Assembly (NCBI GenBank): GCA_903642325.1
Contig: CAHJWM010000001.1
Location: 124,001-188,000 of the forward strand
From: Myxococcales bacterium
Lineage (GTDB): Bacteria > Myxococcota_A > Polyangia > Polyangiales > Polyangiaceae
Length of the DNA stretch: 64,000 bases
Direction: 5' to 3'
Position numbers and translations under genes: made by a program. Numbering within the stretch: the stretch's first letter is position 1; every line of letters begins with the position of its first letter. This document shows positions 7,277 to 59,727 of the stretch, piece by piece. Below the pieces are notes generated by a model that was given only the letters and a program-made list of their open reading frames with translations, had not been told where the DNA came from and searched no databases.

Positions 7277-10030
7277 TCAAGGTCGAGGTGGCACGAACTT
7301 GCGATCGAAAATACGCACTCGCCGGACCATCAGATCGAACAAGAAAAGCAGCACCGCGGCTAGCACGAAGCTCGACCAAAGTGGCCGATAGGAGACGACC
7401 TTTTGCCCGGCCGGGCTGAACACCCGGGTCGGCTCGGGATCGGTCGATCCACCGCCGGCAAGTGTCGCGCGTGCGAGACGATCGAGGTCCGGGTCGAAGC
7501 TCGCATATTCGCGCGGGTAGGGATTGGTGACGTGGCCATAGCTCGTGGCTAGCGGTCTCAGCTCGCCGTTCTCGCCGGCCTTGGCATGTTCGCCGCGCAG
7601 CAGAAAAGAACCGTACTGATCGATCGGGAAATTGGCTTCATACCGGCCGGGCGCAGTTTGCCGCATTGGCACTTCGCGGCGCGCTCCGCTCGAGCCTGGC
7701 CCAGTGACCACGAGCTTCGAGACGATGCCGTTGTCGAACCGCTCATCGGCGGTGAAGGCGTCGACGGTTGCGTGCACGTCGGAACCGAGCATTTCTGTCT
7801 TCATGTCGAGCTCGCGGCGGTGCTTCATGCGCATGTGCTCGCGCACGAGCTGGCCCCAAAACTTCGAAAAGGTAGGCCAGCGCAGCCAATCGATCGACCA
7901 ATTGTTCTTCAGATCGCTGGTCCAAGCCACCGCCCAGCCAAGGCCCGCGCGCCAGCGCGCCAAGATCGGATCCCCGCGTTCACTCTGCAGAATGAGCTGC
8001 GCGGGCGCGGGCTTCAGCTGCGTGGCGACGTAACCGTGGAGCAGTGGCGCGGCATTGATGGCGATTCCTTTCAGGAAGTCCGCGGGCGCGACCTGCTGTA
8101 CCGGGAACCAGTCTTCGACCGCGGCCTGTTGCGCGATCAACTCGGTCTCGCGCGTAAAAATTTTGGGTAAACTATTTGGGTCTGGGACGGCATGAAAACG
8201 ACCGCCGCCGGTGTCGGCAATGAGCCGTAGCAGATCCTGATTGGTGCCCTCGCCAAGCCCGACCGTAGTCACCGTGATCGACTCCGACAGCATGGCCTGC
8301 ACGAGATCTTTGATGCCTTGCGCGGGCGCTTGCCCGTCCGTCAGCAAAATAACGTGCTTTTTGCGCGCCTGAACCACGGATAGGTCTTGGTACGCCATGT
8401 CGAGGCTGGAAAAGATCTCCGTGCCGCCGCCCGGTTGAATGCGCTGAATGTCGTTCTGAATACGGCTCCGATAGCGTGACGGCTGCATCTTCACGTAGCG
8501 AACCGGGGTGGAGTCGAACGCAATCACCTCGAGTAGGTCGTCGCCCTGCAATGTCGATAGCGTGGCCGTGCACGCAGCCTTGGCCATCTCGATGGGCAGG
8601 CCCGTCATCGATCCGCTGCGGTCGATGGCCAGCACCATGGCGACCCCCGGCATTTCCTTGCGGTGCTCGGCATCCATGCGCACCGGCAGCAATCGTTCGA
8701 TGCTCGTATGAGCCCAGCCGCCAAGCCCATAGCCGGCCTCGCCACCAGCAAATAAGAAGCCTCCCCCGAGATCGCGCACGTAACGCTCGACCAGCTCCTG
8801 CGCGGGCAACGGAAACGCCTCCGCCGGCACGTCCGAGACGATCACGAAGTCGTAACGCTCGAGCTCCCGCAAAGACGCGGGGAATGCCGCCGCTGTTCGC
8901 AGGTCCACGTCGAATTGCTGAGCGTTGAGCGCGCTCATCAGGTAGCTCGCGCGTTCTGGTTGGCCTTCCACGTACAGCACCGTGGGACGCCCGGGCACAT
9001 CGACCGTAACGCTAAACGCATTGTTGTCGCGAAACGTGTCTTCGCCGATCTCATCCAGGCGAAGCGCATACGTGACCTCCCCGCCCACTCGCACCACCGA
9101 CTTGAACTTGAGCTCGTTACGACCCGGCTTCAGATCGAGATCGCGCACTCCGTCCAAGCCGTTGAGCGCTTCCCCCTGGTAAAGGCGGGCTTTGGCACGC
9201 GTGGCACGGCTAGCGTAAATGTCGGCTACGAGCTCGAAGGTTTGACCCACGTCGACCTTGTCTGGAACCGTGAGGGCGCGCACCGCCACCTCGCCCGGTG
9301 GCGGACGGCGGTAGGGCACGGCGTACAGCGTGACGCCGAAGCCGCGAGCTCGGTTGGCCTCCGCTAGCAAATCGCCATCGGTCTCCAGGCCATCGCTGAA
9401 CAGGACGACTCGCTTCAAAAAGCCGGGCGGAAACAGCCCATACGAGAGCGCGATCGCCGCGCGAATATCGGTGCCCGCGGTCTGCCTTTTCCCGTTCGCG
9501 GCGCGGTGACGCAAGTCTTGCACGGAGGGCACGATGCTCTTTTTGTTTTGCTCGACCTCGATCAAGCGCGGCCGCTCGGCGAAGGTGACGACCTTGAGCT
9601 CGTCGTCCGGACCTTCGGCGCGGGCGTAGGTCTCGATGGCGCGTCGCGCGTCACTCAGGGCTTCATCCGGCACGGAATCACTGACGTCGACCAGCAGCAC
9701 CGTGCAGACCTTGTGCGTCTCCTCCGAGCGCACCAAGCGGGAAAGGCCCAAAGCCAGCAAGCTCAAGAAAGCCACGCGAAACAAGACCGAGAGCACCCGT
9801 TGCGGCCAGGGCAGGTCGGCGAGCGAGCGGCCAAGCACGAACAGCAGGAGCGGCGTAACCAGCAGCAGACCGAGCGCGTCCGGCTCGAGCAGTTGATAGT
9901 GTACGCCGTGCCTCAGCCAGCGGAGCGCGCCATCGCTCGAGCCCAGCACGAAGTGGCGATAGGCCGCGAATAGCAGGCCCCCGACCGATGCGATGAACGC
10001 CGCCCATGCGGCGCGACCCAGCCGCGGCAT
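7277..10030 (-). CDS. Membrane protein with two VWA domains and a GATase-like domain
   Basis: A 917-residue membrane protein, the last gene of the MoxR operon. Three N-terminal hydrophobic helices are followed by a VWA domain with MIDAS motif DVSDS. A beta-rich stretch and a glutamine-amidotransferase-like segment (VLYVEGQPERASYL, then GGGFLFAGGEAGYG) come next, then a second VWA domain with MIDAS DRSGS and a final transmembrane helix (LAAVLLFLFDLMV) close to the C-terminus. The ATG at 10030 overlaps the upstream stop as TGATG, so that start is preferred to the longer frame from 10108. VWA proteins in MoxR clusters usually act as metal-dependent adaptors or scaffolds for the AAA+ ATPase. The role here is inferred from family and context. 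Confidence 0.85.
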   Translation of the reverse strand: MPRLGRAAWAAFIASVGGLLFAAYRHFVLGSSDGALRWLRHGVHYQLLEPDALGLLLVTPLLLFVLGRSLADLPWPQRVLSVLFRVAFLSLLALGLSRLVRSEETHKVCTVLLVDVSDSVPDEALSDARRAIETYARAEGPDDELKVVTFAERPRLIEVEQNKKSIVPSVQDLRHRAANGKRQTAGTDIRAAIALSYGLFPPGFLKRVVLFSDGLETDGDLLAEANRARGFGVTLYAVPYRRPPPGEVAVRALTVPDKVDVGQTFELVADIYASRATRAKARLYQGEALNGLDGVRDLDLKPGRNELKFKSVVRVGGEVTYALRLDEIGEDTFRDNNAFSVTVDVPGRPTVLYVEGQPERASYLMSALNAQQFDVDLRTAAAFPASLRELERYDFVIVSDVPAEAFPLPAQELVERYVRDLGGGFLFAGGEAGYGLGGWAHTSIERLLPVRMDAEHRKEMPGVAMVLAIDRSGSMTGLPIEMAKAACTATLSTLQGDDLLEVIAFDSTPVRYVKMQPSRYRSRIQNDIQRIQPGGGTEIFSSLDMAYQDLSVVQARKKHVILLTDGQAPAQGIKDLVQAMLSESITVTTVGLGEGTNQDLLRLIADTGGGRFHAVPDPNSLPKIFTRETELIAQQAAVEDWFPVQQVAPADFLKGIAINAAPLLHGYVATQLKPAPAQLILQSERGDPILARWRAGLGWAVAWTSDLKNNWSIDWLRWPTFSKFWGQLVREHMRMKHRRELDMKTEMLGSDVHATVDAFTADERFDNGIVSKLVVTGPGSSGARREVPMRQTAPGRYEANFPIDQYGSFLLRGEHAKAGENGELRPLATSYGHVTNPYPREYASFDPDLDRLARATLAGGGSTDPEPTRVFSPAGQKVVSYRPLWSSFVLAAVLLFLFDLMVRRVRIFDRKFVPPRP

Positions 10031-11916
10031 CAGACGGTGACTCGGCGATGATAAGTGATCCACTCCAGAACGGAGAGCGCGGCGACGATGGCCAGCAAAT
10101 AGACCCAAGCCTCTCGCTTGCGGCCAGGCGCCCCGATGCTGGCTGGGCGCGCGCGCTTGTTGCCGAGAGCGAGCTCAGTGACGGGCGTAATACGGCTCTC
10201 ATCCAAGTCCGAGAGGTTGGCCGCAAACTCGCCGTTGGTCGCGTCCACGCCGGAGCCGGTAACGAGCTTGTAGAACCCGGCTTGCTCCCCCAAGTATATC
10301 GCTCGCCCTTCTTTCACCGGCACCTCGTGATGTACCCCTCGCGGGTCAATCACGGTCGCCGAGTTGGCCGAGCTCGCTACGGGCACTCGCCAGACCTCGC
10401 CGGTGCGGAACGACGAAACGTAGCCCGTGTCCTCCTCCACGAATGCATTGATCGTGTTCAACACGAAGAGCGGCCACGCCACGCGCAACACCAAGTCGCT
10501 GTTCCGCGGATCGAAGCCAAGGGCGACGAACGCGTGCCCGGCGCGCGCTCCAGACACCAGGATTGGTCCTTGGTCGCTCGCACCGAGCACGCGATCCGAA
10601 GCTATCGGCAAGAGCGCATGACCTTTGGAAACCTGCACGTCAGCGAGGGCCAGAAACCGCAGAATTGGGCTTTTCTTGTCCCAAGTGTCGAATCCAAAGT
10701 CGTTCAACGTCGGGCCCAGCGCGAGCGGCGTTCCCGCTTCCGGCGGATTGAGATAGAGGGCGGCCGCAACACTGTCCGGCAATGCGTCCGCAACACCGTC
10801 CAGGATCGCAACGTCGAAATGCTCGCTCGGGATCGTCTTCCCGGGGCCGATCGTCACGACATCGAGGTACTCGTCCAATAGTAACGCTGCTTCCAAATAG
10901 GTATTGCCGCTCGAGATCACGAGCACGCGTGCGCGATGCCGCTCCGGCATCAAAGCATAGGCGTGGTCGTCAGCGGGCAAGTCATCCCCACGGCCGTCGG
11001 CCATGCGGATCTTGGCTTCCAGAGTGCGGCTCGCGCCGGCCAAATCTTGGTAGTACCGCGGCAGCCGCTCGCTCGGACCGAGCGCAAAACGACTGACGTC
11101 GATCACGGCGCCGTCGCCCAGCAAAGTGAGCTCGACCTGCACCGGGCGCTCGTTCGTGTTGGTGACTTCGAGCATTACCTCCGAGCGCGACTTGTCGAGC
11201 GGGTAACGGCGCACCGAAAACTCGGTAAGGGCCACGTTAGTGCCGGATTTTCCGACCGGGAGGAACTCGAGGCTGACCGCGCTCAAGTCGACGTGCTTGG
11301 CGATTTCACTCGAGGTGCCAAGCACGCCGTCGCTCACGACCACGACCTCTGCCTTCGGCAGACCGCGCAAGCTATCGACCGCGAACGATAAGCCGCGCTC
11401 CAAGTCCGCTCGGGTATCCGACGCGGTCAGGGCATCGATGGCTGGATCGAGCTCGGTCGCGTCCGAGCTCATCGTCGACAGCGGGCTTGGCAGTGAGCCC
11501 ATCTGCACGATCAAAGCGCGGTCTGCGCTGCCCAACCCGCGCACCAATTTGCGGACCTGGGCCTTGGCGACTTCGATGCGACTCGGCTGGACGTCAATCG
11601 CCTTCATGGAAGCGCTGCCGTCCACCAGCACGACGATGTGACGGCCGTTCAGCAGCGCACTCTTCGGTCTCGGATCGCCGAGGGCCAGGATGAGCAACGC
11701 TAGAAGCGCGAGCTGAAGCAACAGCGACAGCAGGCGCCGAAGCTTCGAAAAGAGCTCGGTCGCTTGCCGATCGCGGAATACCGCATCCCAGATTCGCGCA
11801 AAAGGCACGGGCACCGCGCGCCTGCGCAGCTTTAAGATGTAAAGCAGCACGGTGACCGACGCGGCGCCGCCGCCTAGCATCAACAATTGGCTCAAGGGCA
11901 GGCCGGCGAGGGTCAT
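10030..11916 (-). CDS. BatA-like N-terminal membrane domain plus VWA protein
   Basis: A 628-residue protein. It opens with the aerotolerance-regulator (BatA) N-terminal layout: one helix (LSQLLMLGGGAASVTVLLYIL), a basic loop (KLRRRAVPVPF), and a second helix (LLSLLLQLALLALLILALGD). A VWA domain follows with MIDAS motif DGSAS at about residue 98. The middle is a beta-rich region, and a single helix near the C-terminus (WVYLLAIVAALSVLEWI) anchors the end. Its ATG overlaps the stop of the DUF58 gene as TAATG, and its own stop overlaps the next ATG, so translation is coupled through three genes. It is probably part of a membrane complex served by the MoxR ATPase. Confidence 0.88.
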   Translation of the reverse strand: MTLAGLPLSQLLMLGGGAASVTVLLYILKLRRRAVPVPFARIWDAVFRDRQATELFSKLRRLLSLLLQLALLALLILALGDPRPKSALLNGRHIVVLVDGSASMKAIDVQPSRIEVAKAQVRKLVRGLGSADRALIVQMGSLPSPLSTMSSDATELDPAIDALTASDTRADLERGLSFAVDSLRGLPKAEVVVVSDGVLGTSSEIAKHVDLSAVSLEFLPVGKSGTNVALTEFSVRRYPLDKSRSEVMLEVTNTNERPVQVELTLLGDGAVIDVSRFALGPSERLPRYYQDLAGASRTLEAKIRMADGRGDDLPADDHAYALMPERHRARVLVISSGNTYLEAALLLDEYLDVVTIGPGKTIPSEHFDVAILDGVADALPDSVAAALYLNPPEAGTPLALGPTLNDFGFDTWDKKSPILRFLALADVQVSKGHALLPIASDRVLGASDQGPILVSGARAGHAFVALGFDPRNSDLVLRVAWPLFVLNTINAFVEEDTGYVSSFRTGEVWRVPVASSANSATVIDPRGVHHEVPVKEGRAIYLGEQAGFYKLVTGSGVDATNGEFAANLSDLDESRITPVTELALGNKRARPASIGAPGRKREAWVYLLAIVAALSVLEWITYHRRVTV

Positions 11917-12845
11917 TAGCGCAGAAAGCCTCCGCGGCGGAACACACGCAGCACGAGCTCGTCGAAGGGTGTGTTCACGTCGGCCGCGAAATAAGGCACC
12001 TGCTTCTGCGCGCAGAAGCGCTCGATACTCGCCCGGTACTCGTTCACCGCGCTGGCCATCTTCTCCAGCATGCCGTCGGTGATCGTGAGCTCGCGTTCTT
12101 CACCGGTTTCGCAATCGTAAATACGAACGTCGCCTTTCAATGCTGGACGCGCTTCAGCCGGATCACAGAGCTCCACCACGTACGGCTCGAACTTGTTGAA
12201 ACGCAGTATGTTGATGCCGGCTTCGAAGCCCGCCGGGTCGTATAAATCGCTGAACAGGACCGCTAAACCGCGGCGCTTGTGCTGCGCTACGAAGCTCTTC
12301 AGGGCCGCCGCTAGGTCGGTCGAACCGCGTGGCTCGAGCCTCGACAGAAATTCGAAGACCTTGAAAATTCGACCCTTGCCGCGAGTCGTCGGCATGCGCG
12401 AGACCACACCGTCGTTCACGCCGACGACCGTCACCCGATCGAGGTTCGCCAATCCTACATAGGCGAGCGCCGCGCAAAGCTTGCGCGCTTGATCGAATTT
12501 TTTATGCTCACCGAAGCCCATCGACGTCGAACAGTCGACGATCAAGTAGATGCTGAGATCTTCCTCCTCCTCGTACAAGCGCACGAGCAGCTTCCCGAAG
12601 CGCTGGTACACGTTCCAGTCAACCGAGCGAAAGTCGTCGCCCGCCACATAGTCGCGGTGGTCGGCGAACTCGATGCCGCTGCCCTTTTTCTTGCTTCTGC
12701 GTTCGGCTCGTAGCCTGCCCGCGAACACGCGCCGACTCACGAGCGCGAGCATTTCCAGCTTGCGCTGGAAGTCGTCGTCGAACAGCGGCTCGCGCCGCAG
12801 AGCCCGTGGGCTCGCCTCGCGCCGAAACAGGTCGAGAAGGCCCAC
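11916..12845 (-). CDS. DUF58 domain protein (VWA-like) of MoxR cluster
   Basis: A 309-residue soluble protein of the DUF58 family. The family signature region is visible (SGIEFADHRDYVAGDDFRSV, then DWNVYQRFGKLLVRLYEEE), followed by a VWA-like MIDAS DCSTS at about residue 110. The gene lies directly downstream of the moxR-type ATPase with an 8-bp gap. In other bacteria DUF58 proteins are consistent partners of MoxR ATPases and are thought to present targets or metal-dependent ligands to them. The substrate here is unknown. Confidence 0.92.
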   Translation of the reverse strand: MGLLDLFRREASPRALRREPLFDDDFQRKLEMLALVSRRVFAGRLRAERRSKKKGSGIEFADHRDYVAGDDFRSVDWNVYQRFGKLLVRLYEEEEDLSIYLIVDCSTSMGFGEHKKFDQARKLCAALAYVGLANLDRVTVVGVNDGVVSRMPTTRGKGRIFKVFEFLSRLEPRGSTDLAAALKSFVAQHKRRGLAVLFSDLYDPAGFEAGINILRFNKFEPYVVELCDPAEARPALKGDVRIYDCETGEERELTITDGMLEKMASAVNEYRASIERFCAQKQVPYFAADVNTPFDELVLRVFRRGGFLR

Positions 12846-12853
12846 GAACCCCC

Positions 12854-13855
12854 CTATTGTCTCGTAGGCGCTAACTTTGCGAGGATGTCCGCGACCACGC
12901 GATCGGACGCGACGCCCTCCGCCTCGCCTTCGAAGCTGAGCAGCACGCGGTGGCGCAGCGCCGGCAGCGCCGTGGCTTTGACGTCATCGATCGACGCCGC
13001 GAAGCGGCCATCGAACAAGGCCCGAACCTTTGCCCCGAGCAACATGGCTTGCGCGCCGCGCGGCGAAGCGCCGGTGCGCACGAAACGCTTCACGAGCTCA
13101 GGCGCCTCTTCTCCGGCCGGGTGGGTCGCCATGAGGACTCGTATGGCGTAGTCCTGCACGTGCCGCGCCACCGGCACCCGGCGCACCAGCGCTTGCATGC
13201 TCAAAATTTGCTCACGCGTGAGTATGCGCTTCACCTCTGCATGCTGGCTGGTAGTGGTGCGGTCGATGATGGCGTGGAGCTCGTCACGTGACGGGAATGG
13301 CACCTCAAGCTTGAAGAAGAAACGATCGAGCTGGGCCTCGGGCAAGGGGTAAGTACCCTCCATCTCTAGGGGATTTTGCGTGGCAAGGACGAAGTAAGGT
13401 TCCTCGATCTCGTGCGTGGTGCGGCCCACGGTGACGCGGTGCTCCTGCATGGCTTCGAGCAGCGCGCTCTGCGTCTTGGGGGTGGCTCGGTTTACCTCGT
13501 CCGCGAGCACGATGTTGGCGAAGACGGGCCCGCGGCGAAACTCCAGCGTACGCGCACCCGCCGCGCCTTCGTCGAGCACCACCGTGCCGATGATATCTGC
13601 GGGCATCAGATCGGGCGTGAACTGAATGCGCGAAAACTCGAGCCCCAGCACCCCGGCCAACGTGCGCACGAGCATCGTCTTGCCCAGACCAGGCACGCCC
13701 TCGAGCAGCGCGTGCGAGGAACCGAGCATGCACGAGAGCACGCCGTCGACCACCTCGCGGTTGCCGACGATCACGCGCCCGATTTCCTCGCGCAGGGCGC
13801 CGATCTGCTTTTGAAATTCACTGACTTCTTCGCGCGCTCGTTCGGCATCCGTCAT
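12854..13855 (-). CDS. MoxR family AAA+ ATPase
   Basis: A 333-residue AAA+ ATPase of the MoxR family, expected to act as an ATP-driven chaperone for protein-complex maturation. Visible motifs are Walker A GVPGLGKT, Walker B NIVLADEVNRA, sensor-1 region FVLATQNP, the family hallmark EGTYPLPEAQLDRF, and arginine-rich C-terminal motifs (TGASPRGAQ). The ATG at 13855 has AGGAG upstream and matches the family N-terminus, so the longer open frame to 13996 is not used. The next four family members around it (coiled-coil membrane protein, DUF58, two VWA proteins) are on the same strand. Confidence 0.95.
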   Translation of the reverse strand: MTDAERAREEVSEFQKQIGALREEIGRVIVGNREVVDGVLSCMLGSSHALLEGVPGLGKTMLVRTLAGVLGLEFSRIQFTPDLMPADIIGTVVLDEGAAGARTLEFRRGPVFANIVLADEVNRATPKTQSALLEAMQEHRVTVGRTTHEIEEPYFVLATQNPLEMEGTYPLPEAQLDRFFFKLEVPFPSRDELHAIIDRTTTSQHAEVKRILTREQILSMQALVRRVPVARHVQDYAIRVLMATHPAGEEAPELVKRFVRTGASPRGAQAMLLGAKVRALFDGRFAASIDDVKATALPALRHRVLLSFEGEAEGVASDRVVADILAKLAPTRQ

Positions 13856-13928
13856 TGGCGACTCCTGGCACTCGGGTTGGACGACGCCCGGCGTGTGATG
13901 TTTGGTCGGGGCAGGCACGTGAATTGGC

Positions 13929-15809
13929 TCATTCGCGGGGCCGGATGAGTTGAAAATAGCGGCGCACATAGAAACGATAACCGGAGGGGATTTCATCCCG
14001 CGTCAGCGCCTGTTCAGCGACCGTTTGATAGTCGGTGAACACCTGCTTGTAGCCGTGGCCCACGAAGCCGCGCTCGGCCGCACCGAAGATCACCTGGGAG
14101 GAGGCCGCACCCTGGCCGGTATCCGCGCCCGCAGCGGTCACATCCTCCGTTTTGCCTTTCAGATCCGTGGCCGCGCCCGTCAGCTCTGCGTTGTGCCCAG
14201 TGCCCGCGCCCGGCCCCGCGCCGTCGGGCGGGCCCGCTCCGGGCTTTTCGCCCGGATCAGCCGAGCTCTCACCCGGTCGACGGCGAGCCACCGGGATCTC
14301 GACAGAAACGCTGCCGGGACCGCTGCCCAAGCGAAGTGGTCCGGACTTTTGTGGCCCCCCCTCCTGACCGTCACCGGGCCCCTTGCCGTCACCTTGCCCA
14401 CCCTGACCACGTGCGCGCTGACCGAATTTTTGCATGCGCTGCAGCTGATCTTTGCCGCCTTTGCCCTGTTGTCGCATCAACTCCCGCATCTCCTGCAGCT
14501 TCTTCAGCAACTGCTTTTTTTGTTCCTCACTGGCCTCCTGCTTGGCCATGCGGTTGATGTCTTGCGCGCCTTGCTCTAGATCCTGCGCACTCTGACCGGC
14601 GGCCTCGAGCAGATCGCGCGCGGCTCGGGCCAGCTGCTGGTCGAGCTCCGACATTTGCTTTTGGCTTCGCTCTGCGCGGGTCTTCTCGCGCTCCAAATGC
14701 TCGAGCCGGCGTTCGTTATCGGCGAGCTTCGGATCGGCACTGGCGCCCGCGTCCGCGTCACTGGCCTTCTTTTTGAGCAAGCTCTTATGCTCTTCTTCGA
14801 GCTCACGGCGGCGTTCGGCGATGTTTTTCAGCCGCTCTTCGCTGCTGTTTCCGGCCTTTTTAAGGGCCTGACGAAGCTTGTCCAGCTCGGCCGCATTGGG
14901 TCGAGTCTCTTTGTTTTTCAACTTCTCCGCTAGCTCGCGCAGAGCCTTCTCCGCGTCCGCCAAGCGCTTTTCTTCGAGAGCGGCCGCCGCCGGTTTGCTG
15001 AGCCCACTCTTCTCCAGCTCCCGCGCGAGTCCCTTCAAGCCGTCGTCCCGTGCACCTTGGTCGAGCTCTACGTCGTCTTTCAGCTCGCGCTCGAGATCCC
15101 CCATGCGCTGAAACACTTCGTGTCGGTCCAATCGGTGCTCTGCGATGTCTTCAACCAACTGATTGAAGCGGCGCACCGCGACCAGCGCTTTAGGGTCGTC
15201 GCTGTTCGCTTGCAGCTCCTTGACCGCGTCGCGAAAGAGCTCGATGTCGTCCGCACTCATCTGCATCGGTTCGAAAGAGGCTGGTTCCGGCAGCTGGCGA
15301 TAGTGACGCACCTCGAGCGTCGATAGCGCGCCCAGGCCGACCACCAGCAGTAGCACCAAGCCGGTCTCCGGCGGCACGCGGATGGGCACCGCGCGGCGCG
15401 GATCGAGCGCGCCAGCGACCGCCACGCCGTCCTCGATCGCCGCTTGCATCAAGGAAGAGCGCGCCGCAGAGGGCAGCTCGCTAAACGTCAGTGCGCTCGT
15501 AACGCGGTCCTGGAACCCATGATATGCGTCGAGCGCGAGCGAGCCCTGCCAGGTTGGACCGCGCGAAAACAGCACGCGCGCGACGCCGAGCAGAAACGCG
15601 GCGGCCGGAAGTAGCCCGACGAGCAGGAAGGCTCGTTCGACCGAGCCACCTAGGCGCAGCGCCTTCAGCAGGGTCAACGCGAACACCGAATAGCCGAGCG
15701 GCAACGGCAAAATCCGCATGGCACGGCTCAAAACCGCGGCGATATGCGCTCGGCGCCCGGCCCGTCGTGCCGCGCGCCGGAGCTTACCGATGCCGTCGCT
15801 GGAGGCCAT
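13929..15809 (-). CDS. Coiled-coil membrane protein heading the MoxR operon
   Basis: A 626-residue protein with two N-terminal transmembrane helices (SVFALTLLKAL region and AFLLVGLLPAAAFLLGVA) and a third near residue 130 (TGLVLLLVVGLGALS). A very long charged coiled coil rich in Glu, Lys, Arg and Gln follows at about 150-460, then a Gly/Pro-rich low-complexity linker and a conserved-looking C-terminal segment (FGAAERGFVGHGYKQVF). The ATG at 15809 is chosen because it begins just before the first helix; upstream codons are basic and unlike a signal. It is the first gene of the MoxR cluster, 73 bp before the ATPase. Such proteins (DUF4175-like architecture) are often found there; the function is unknown. 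Confidence 0.75.
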   Translation of the reverse strand: MASSDGIGKLRRAARRAGRRAHIAAVLSRAMRILPLPLGYSVFALTLLKALRLGGSVERAFLLVGLLPAAAFLLGVARVLFSRGPTWQGSLALDAYHGFQDRVTSALTFSELPSAARSSLMQAAIEDGVAVAGALDPRRAVPIRVPPETGLVLLLVVGLGALSTLEVRHYRQLPEPASFEPMQMSADDIELFRDAVKELQANSDDPKALVAVRRFNQLVEDIAEHRLDRHEVFQRMGDLERELKDDVELDQGARDDGLKGLARELEKSGLSKPAAAALEEKRLADAEKALRELAEKLKNKETRPNAAELDKLRQALKKAGNSSEERLKNIAERRRELEEEHKSLLKKKASDADAGASADPKLADNERRLEHLEREKTRAERSQKQMSELDQQLARAARDLLEAAGQSAQDLEQGAQDINRMAKQEASEEQKKQLLKKLQEMRELMRQQGKGGKDQLQRMQKFGQRARGQGGQGDGKGPGDGQEGGPQKSGPLRLGSGPGSVSVEIPVARRRPGESSADPGEKPGAGPPDGAGPGAGTGHNAELTGAATDLKGKTEDVTAAGADTGQGAASSQVIFGAAERGFVGHGYKQVFTDYQTVAEQALTRDEIPSGYRFYVRRYFQLIRPRE

Positions 15810-16080
15810 CCGGTTCAAGTTAAGCACCCGAATGGCGTCGCGCACAGCTCCCGGCGCGCGCCGTGCGACGCCGGGTGTCTGCGGCCCTCTAGCGCGCGAT
15901 GGGCGGCGGCGCGGGCTGACTCGAGGGTCAAAGCGGTGCGCCTTAGACGGCCCGCCGCCCGAGTCGCGACCCGCGCCGGGCGGCGGGCGTCACGGGGCTT
16001 GACCCCCAACCATGCGCTGGTCTCGAATGCGAATGAATTCGCGCTTCTCCATCGCCTTTGCCCCCGGAGCCCCCGTCACC

Positions 16081-17337
16081 ATGCCCAAAGAATCAAAGCC
16101 CATCGTACTCGTCGCCGACGACGAACCGAGCATGGTTGCCATGTTGGCGAGTCATCTGCGCTCGAAAGGCTACACTGTGTTGGAAGCTTCTGACGGTGAT
16201 CAAGCTTGGGAGCTCGCGCACGAGCACCTACCGAACTTGGTTCTGCTCGACGTGATGATGCCGGGCATGAGTGGTTGGGAGGTGTGTCGCAAGATCCGCG
16301 AAGCGGTGTCTCTCGCTCACACTGGTGTGATCATGCTTACTGGCATCGGAGAAAATTTGAACGAGATGACCTCGCCGCTGTACGGCGCGGATGCATACCT
16401 CGACAAGCCGTTCGAGTTCTCCGATCTGGATCGAAAGATCTCGGAGACGATCACACGGCGCGCCGGCGGCGCGCTCGGGCGCGCGGATGGTGAAGGCGAC
16501 GACGAGCGAGGCGTAAAGAAGGCCGGACGCGCGACCACGAGCGCCAAGAAGCCGGTGAAGGCCAAGGACTTGCCGCGCGATGAGGAGCGTGAGCTGCCAG
16601 TCGAATCAGCACCCGACAAGAAGGCGCGCAACCCAAAGTCCGAGCCAAAGCTCGGCGGGCCGCCGGAAAAAGCAGCGACCAAGCCGCCGCTAGCAAAAGC
16701 AAAAGGCATCGCGCGCCCCGAGCCCGACGCGGACACCACCGCAACGGCGACGGGGAAGGAAAGGGGGGAAGCCAAGCCGCGGGTGAAAGCGCCTACCCCG
16801 AAGGCGCAGAAAACGAACCAGCCCGCACCGATGCCGGTGCCAACTGCCTTGAAAGAGAGGTCAAAGCCCGTCGCGAAGGTTGCCCCACAGCCCGCCAATC
16901 CGCCCGCGGCGAAGGTGAGCGCCCCGCCCGCAGGGAAGAAACCCGCGCTCGCGCTGCCCAAGCCCGCCAAGTCGGCGCCCAAGCCCGCCAAGTCAGCGCC
17001 CAAGCCCGCCAAGTCAGCGCCCAAGCCCGCCAAGTCGGCACCCAAGCCCGTCAAATCAGCGCCCAAGCCTGCCAAGTCAGCACCCAAGCCCGCCAAGTCA
17101 GCGCCCAAGCCCGTCAAGTCGGCACCCAAGCCTGCCAAGTCGGCACCCAAGCCTGCCAAGCCAGCACCCAAGCCTGCCAAGTCAGCGCCTAAGCCTGCCA
17201 AGTCAGCACCCAAGCCTGCCAAGTCAGCACCCAAGCCTGCCAAGTCAGCACCCAAGCCTGCCAAGTCAGCACCCAAGCCTGCCAAGTCGGCGCCCAAGCC
17301 CGCCAAGTCGGCGCCCAAGCCCGCCAAGAAACGTTAG
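16081..17337 (+). CDS. Response regulator with H1-like KPAKSAP repeat tail
   Basis: A 418-residue protein. Residues 1-125 are a receiver (REC) domain with acidic pair ADDEP, phospho-acceptor in LLDVMMPG, the conserved Thr in MLTG and the Lys in LDKPF. The rest is a very basic, low-complexity Lys/Pro/Ala region that ends in 17 full copies of KP(A/V)K(S/P)AP plus KPAKKR. There is no recognisable output enzyme or helix-turn-helix. The tail resembles histone H1 C-terminal domains, so non-specific DNA binding under phosphorylation control is inferred. The ATG at 16081 starts just before the REC fold. Its stop overlaps the convergent helicase stop by 4 bp. A cognate kinase is not nearby. Confidence 0.85.
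   Translation: MPKESKPIVLVADDEPSMVAMLASHLRSKGYTVLEASDGDQAWELAHEHLPNLVLLDVMMPGMSGWEVCRKIREAVSLAHTGVIMLTGIGENLNEMTSPLYGADAYLDKPFEFSDLDRKISETITRRAGGALGRADGEGDDERGVKKAGRATTSAKKPVKAKDLPRDEERELPVESAPDKKARNPKSEPKLGGPPEKAATKPPLAKAKGIARPEPDADTTATATGKERGEAKPRVKAPTPKAQKTNQPAPMPVPTALKERSKPVAKVAPQPANPPAAKVSAPPAGKKPALALPKPAKSAPKPAKSAPKPAKSAPKPAKSAPKPVKSAPKPAKSAPKPAKSAPKPVKSAPKPAKSAPKPAKPAPKPAKSAPKPAKSAPKPAKSAPKPAKSAPKPAKSAPKPAKSAPKPAKSAPKPAKKR
16960..17337 (+). repeat. 21-bp in-frame tandem repeat array
   Basis: Seventeen complete 21-bp units plus a last unit that ends in the stop codon, encoding KPAKSAP repeats. Units differ mainly at third codon positions (ccc/cct, tcg/tca, gcg/gca) and three carry amino-acid changes (two KPVKSAP, one KPAKPAP). 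Consecutive units at 17191-17274 are identical, which suggests recent local duplication. The antisense strand stays open through the array but is a shadow. Confidence 0.97.
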
Positions 17338-59583: not shown

Positions 59584-59727
59584 TCACGCCTTCTTGGCGG
59601 CCTTCTTGCGCTTCTTGGCGCCTTTTTTGGCGACCTTGCGCTTGGCGACGCGCTTCTTGGCGACTTTCGGCGCCTTCTTGGCGGCGGGTTTCTTTGCGGA
59701 CTTCGTACGGGTTTTCTTAGCAGCCAT
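59584..59727 (-). CDS. Histone H1-like Lys/Ala-rich small protein
   Basis: A 47-residue, extremely basic protein made of AAKK, AKKR and VAKK units, similar to histone H1 C-terminal domains and to bacterial H1-like nucleoid proteins. It probably coats DNA without sequence specificity. The ATG at 59727 has a GGGAGG Shine-Dalgarno sequence nine bases upstream and a good promoter further up. The frame upstream of this ATG is open but carries unlike residues, so the short start is chosen. Confidence 0.85.
   Translation of the reverse strand: MAAKKTRTKSAKKPAAKKAPKVAKKRVAKRKVAKKGAKKRKKAAKKA

Follow-up and report, generated by a model that had tools for sequence, protein, structure and literature searches.

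A CheY-like response regulator of the Polyangiaceae appears to have gained, once, an H1-like polycationic tail, and we propose, with about an even chance of being right, that this tail anchors the receiver on the nucleoid through charge-based binding of DNA. The proposal draws on the anatomy of the protein, its conserved phosphorylation residues, the single placement of the tailed loci on a tree of receivers, a composition that has stayed constant while the repeat units changed, and codon conservation within the repeats. The tail is of a known kind; its stable union with a receiver across one family is new, and no description of such a joining was found in the open-licence papers searched by full text, in the portions of those papers that were available. 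The gene lies in the window, by which we mean the whole stretch of 64,000 nucleotides that was analysed, part of a 308,747-base contig from a myxobacterial genome of 5.83 Mb in 140 contigs. Its features are as follows.

16066–16069, plus strand: GGAG, a possible ribosome-binding sequence read from the DNA, 11 bases 5′ of the ATG
16081–17337, plus strand: whole gene, encoding receiver domain, linker and H1-like repeat tail; 418 aa
16105–16440, plus strand: REC receiver domain, residues 9–120 (PF00072, E 8.4e-24; beta/alpha fold by AlphaFold2)
16117–16122, plus strand: acidic pair D13-D14; D14 invariant and D13 nearly so in 26 sequences
16249–16251, plus strand: D57, the phosphoacceptor aspartate; invariant in 26 of 26
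16339–16341, plus strand: T87, the switch threonine; invariant in 26 of 26
16405–16407, plus strand: K109, the conserved active-site lysine; invariant in 26 of 26
16471–16956, plus strand: non-repeated, mixed-charge linker rich in proline and lysine; predicted disordered
16957–17328, plus strand: tandem array of a 21-bp unit, 17 full units and 15 bp of an 18th (TRF)

The reading frame occupies the coordinates given in the first-pass annotation, with its ATG at 16081 and a stop codon that ends at 17337. A further in-frame ATG lies 5′ at 16012, but 16081 is the better start because, in the orthologue L003, a stop codon stands immediately 5′ of the equivalent position. A promoter scan for the receiver gene found nothing, and an opposite-strand ORF of 336 aa (16317–17327) most likely just shadows the repeat.

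The receiver itself is ordinary. It scores 84.3 bits against PF00072, where the curated cut-off is 30.2, AlphaFold2 predicts it confidently, with ten-residue blocks at pLDDT 73–97, and in a fold comparison the predicted structure matches receivers; its computed pI is 4.6. The conservation given above comes from an alignment of 26 orthologues from 10 families, in all of which an unusual TSPL stretch preceding the conserved A-D is also invariant. The D13-D14 pair presumably forms part of the phosphorylation site, as is general among receivers. Within the order, receiver orthologues are 53–83% identical. After residue 120 of the window protein no Pfam domain rises above its cut-off, and by Pfam and AlphaFold2 a folded DNA-binding output domain of the OmpR, NarL or NtrC type is absent, the tail being disordered; the earlier expectation that the protein has no domain for specific DNA regulation is therefore upheld.

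Past the receiver the window protein continues for 288 residues. TRF describes the array as 17.7 copies of a 21-bp period, with 92% matches and a score of 548; the two other rows that it reports for the window reach 56 and 58. The first-pass annotation had counted 17 full KPAKSAP units, which is correct for the full 21-bp units, whereas the exact heptapeptide occurs in only 14 of them, beside two KPVKSAP and one KPAKPAP. The computed pI of the array is 12.0, and AlphaFold2 models the tail without secondary structure at a pLDDT of about 41–56. Identical consecutive units, from which the same annotation had argued for a changeable array, are present (2–3 and 13–14–15), but like units do not cluster significantly: neighbours differ 28 times against 33.9 expected (p 0.07), and recent duplication as the cause of adjacency was set aside. 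The description of a receiver joined to an H1-like tail is borne out by the REC match, by the composition of the tail and by the H1-like nucleoprotein profile HC2 (PF07382), which matches 5 of 21 related proteins at E up to 0.01 (best E 9.6e-20); the window protein does not match it at E up to 1. To our knowledge, HC2 carries no receiver. The core motif of AT-hooks, [KR]GRP, occurs in one of 90 tails, and an AT-hook tail like those of HMGA or CarD was rejected on this count.

A search with the receiver at E 1e-28 or better found matches in 89 of the 108 genomes of the window's family and 147 of the 183 of its order, one per genome except in G091, which has two. We call this family (f1) Polyangiaceae by inference from two named relatives, and the grouping is probably a GTDB family. 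Across the phylum a profile search matched 162 of 282 genomes at E 1e-28; the weaker of these matches, roughly 1e-28 to 1e-32, probably come from different receivers, and the results show a gap between 1.4e-37 and 9.8e-33. The receiver belongs to an orthologous group, usually with one strong match per genome, that is recovered across the Myxococcota. The gene is dispensable, because 19 of the 108 family genomes, including 2 of the 8 from the window's genus, show no match to it at E 1e-28. Among the family members without it at this threshold are G001, G005 and five g6 genomes.

The tails of 90 loci in the family were scored in two batches (83 and 7). All 90 extend past the receiver, and 89 do so into a lysine-rich tail; at L161, which is among the 12 that hit a contig end, only 25 residues are left and the tail cannot be judged. 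The remaining 78 reach a stop codon with tails of 68–490 aa (median 135). In eleven other families of the order, a long lysine-rich tail was found at none of 58 loci, 52 of which have 0–9 residues past the receiver and five, all from f8, 23–25. The last of the 58, L225, has 86, but this tail was rejected as the product of a frameshift, and we count the locus as tail-less because the next frame ends the receiver as usual. The f8 loci (L025, L026, L200, L201 and L209) bear a short basic extension, unlike the other tail-less families; as a forerunner of the tail it was rejected, f8 not being the sister group on a tree whose deep forks are poorly supported. Beyond the order, 20 loci of the phylum were hand-picked among the profile-search matches, some for a long open frame, and none has a lysine-rich tail, all ending within 17 residues of the receiver. 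Outside the Polyangiaceae, whether within the order or elsewhere in the phylum, the orthologue ends where the receiver ends.

On the receiver tree (167 rows, 127 columns, L225 left out, many inner forks open), the f1 loci make up one side of one branch with an SH-aLRT of 97, so the trait needs only one change. The tail was probably gained once, in the ancestor of the family, the tail-less state outside it suggesting a gain and not a loss. An old, phylum-wide, one-domain receiver and a tail that is the trait of a single family are points that go beyond the first-pass annotation. Compared with the one-domain group of the Myxococcota, the window protein has the orthologous receiver but departs from the description "no further domain".

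Within the family, the unit has been rewritten while the composition has been kept. TRF finds an array in 79 of 83 f1 tails, and the best-scoring period takes 28 values across these 79 arrays, from 9 to 186 bp; it is a multiple of three in 78, the exception being 44 bp in the frameshifted L176. The 75 complete in-frame tails are 29% A, 25% K and 12% P, with F, W, Y, I, L and M together at a median of 2%, and the net charge over the last 80 residues of complete tails is +0.26 to +0.51 per residue. In 28 clean arrays the varying columns number 64 of 186 at third codon positions versus 48 of 372 at positions 1 and 2 (Fisher p 6e-9, with columns that are not independent); the third-position excess is seen in 22 of the arrays, while 4 tie and 2 go the opposite way. 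This excess of variation at third codon positions makes the amino acids look selected, held in place while the copies diverge.

That the array can change in length is sustained as a comparison between species, the collections holding one genome per species: in the 25 closest pairs of relatives, with receiver DNA 93–98% identical, the difference in tail length ranges from 0 to 318 bp. Gaps in four aligned pairs of near relatives lie mostly within the array and come in multiples of three; G101 and G102, whose receivers are 98.2% identical, differ by 39 bp in total. Short-read assembly may distort such repeat lengths, as contigs often end in the tail and that of L024 has a run of N. At L151 (from the complete isolate genome of Sorangium cellulosum So ceGT47) and L176, the array runs out of frame partway and another frame is lysine-rich to its stop, which may reflect mutation, an on/off state of the tail or sequencing error.

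Such arrays are rare in the genome of the window. Two K/A/P-array codon patterns matched this array, a 47-aa peptide and one place on contig 31, a count that is a lower bound because the patterns are narrow; with so few matches, a genome-wide habit of such tails was unsupported. When the array served as a protein query, four weak places came up (E 0.02 to 0.9), in none of which a filter found a long lysine-rich frame; the HC2 profile matched 0 times in this genome and between 0 and 9 times in 29 relatives. The 47-aa ORF, rich in lysine and alanine (window 59584–59727, minus strand), resembles a stand-alone H1-like peptide and matches nothing in Pfam at E up to 0.1. The KK-x-[AP] codon pattern hit two places in the genome, this ORF among them.

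Reasoning by analogy with better-known proteins for DNA as the ligand, for nucleoid anchoring and for the role of phosphorylation, we propose that a disordered H1-like polycation was joined to the receiver C-terminus in the Polyangiaceae ancestor. This tail would bind DNA by charge, without sequence preference, and would hold the receiver on the nucleoid; D57 would be phosphorylated by a kinase, and the phosphorylated receiver would pass on the signal at the chromosome in the manner of one-domain regulators, through a partner protein that it binds. The repeats would be the means by which the tail is made and remade through gain and loss of units, with selection keeping its charge and composition.

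Parking on the nucleoid is the most likely role of the tail because one-domain regulators bind partners and K/P/A tails tie cargo. One-domain response regulators such as EpsW are reported to act by binding partner proteins when phosphorylated (PMC12802240); EpsW is a CheY-like receiver alone, with no tail, and the window protein, at 54.2 bits against a curated cut-off of 200, is not a member of the EpsW family (NF041866). PhaF and PhaM are described as tying storage granules to the nucleoid by K/P/A-rich tails (PMC9049629), and so likewise join a folded or helical cargo part to a nucleoid-tying tail, although their cargo is a storage granule and they have no phosphorylation input. AlgP (AlgR3) of Pseudomonas aeruginosa is a regulatory protein with disordered C-terminal K/P/A tandem repeats, and its KPAA peptides are reported to bind DNA (PMC9239181), but its N-terminus is a helical domain, not a receiver, and its unit is KPAA and not KPAKSAP. 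In AlgP, PhaF and PhaM the K/P/A-repeat tails are reported to bind DNA irrespective of its sequence and to tie cargo to the nucleoid (PMC9239181, PMC9049629). The window protein has the disordered K/P/A repeat tail of AlgP and PhaF, with a receiver in place of the helical AlgP N-terminus or the phasin domain. An association between lysine-rich low-complexity regions and DNA binding has been reported throughout prokaryotes, and low-complexity regions are said to abound in myxobacteria (PMC6821194). Against nucleoid anchoring we count the failure of the window protein to match HC2, the strongly acidic stretch of 11 of 76 complete tails, the lack of a match to the gene in 19 of 108 family genomes at E 1e-28 and the out-of-frame arrays of L151 and L176. 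Lysine-rich tails can also bind RNA, polyphosphate and acidic proteins, which counts against DNA as the ligand.

The tail might, then, anchor the receiver on another polyanion, be it polyphosphate granules, ribosomes or RNA, or acidic proteins, a reading that we consider unlikely but credible. Polyphosphate is the strongest rival ligand because AlgP, whose tail is closely similar, is reported to sit on polyphosphate granules and to space them (PMC9239181); ribosomal proteins, too, contain low-complexity regions rich in lysine (PMC6821194). Divergent from the receiver gene, at 10030–15845 on the minus strand, are MoxR ATPase, DUF58 and BatA/VWA-type genes and that of a 638-aa protein without a Pfam match. 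Another neighbour encodes a helicase (Pfam DEAD and Helicase_C_2) that we take to be DinG-like, and neither it nor the MoxR/DUF58/VWA operon points to polyphosphate or ribosomes, which argues against this reading. Of 68 stretches, 25 carry a MoxR homologue close to the receiver, the divergent members G053 and G054 among them. The 68 include the window itself (L183), one genome twice (L032, L151) and many short stretches; this synteny supports receiver orthology in part of the family. None of these neighbours occurs in four 12-kb stretches from other families (L184–L187), and no partner is shared between the neighbours of a tail-less orthologue and those of a family member without the operon.

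It is improbable, in our estimate, that the protein feeds a two-component signal into bulk chromatin, phosphorylation altering a linker-histone-like seating whose strength is set by an easily shifting number of units. Distinctly improbable is the model of the first-pass annotation, in which the protein coats or compacts DNA and phosphorylation switches the coating, so that the signal acts directly on chromatin. The H1-like composition and the intact phosphorylation site in the same polypeptide speak for it; it needs, however, high abundance and coupling between receiver and tail, and strong conservation is seen in the receiver, which does its work tail-less elsewhere in the phylum. Because of this conservation and this tail-less state elsewhere, the main output of the receiver is probably protein binding and not the tail.

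There is little prospect, we think, that the tail drives self-association into a condensate or polar cluster, with the pattern of charge, not DNA, being what matters. The precedent is RomR of Myxococcus xanthus, a response regulator for which the disordered linker and the C-terminal part play such a role. It is a protein of 420 aa in which a REC domain is followed by a disordered proline-rich region, and whose linker alone is reported to reach the poles (PMC3441718). RomR ends, however, in a conserved Glu-rich helical region, RomR-C, and the available part of its description mentions no lysine-rich array; the window protein ends in a lysine array, with no predicted helix and no RomR-C region, and membership was rejected. 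In favour of self-association, some tails do join long acidic and basic blocks, but 65 of 76 complete tails have no strongly acidic block by the threshold used. In the other 11 a strongly acidic stretch precedes the basic one, and it could shield or bind the basic tail. Long Asp/Glu runs lie between receiver and basic tail at L004, L005, L006, L119, L120 and L155.

That repeat expansion produced the tail as a side effect, tolerated and of little use, as its fast-changing length and unit and the loss of the lysine frame at two loci (L151, L176) might suggest, is very improbable given that composition is kept in all complete in-frame tails despite differing units, that third codon positions vary most and that such arrays are rare in the genome.

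The family offers a clean natural comparison, in which a single branch separates the forms of one conserved receiver that bear an H1-like tail from those that lack it, and an example of a protein region whose composition persists through repeated rewriting of its unit. Were phosphorylation to alter linker-histone-like seating after all, the protein would be a bacterial counterpart of a signal-controlled linker histone, kept through one myxobacterial family. If nucleoid anchoring, the reading that we prefer, is true, the Polyangiaceae would possess a class of response regulators in which the output is a location and not a DNA-binding domain.
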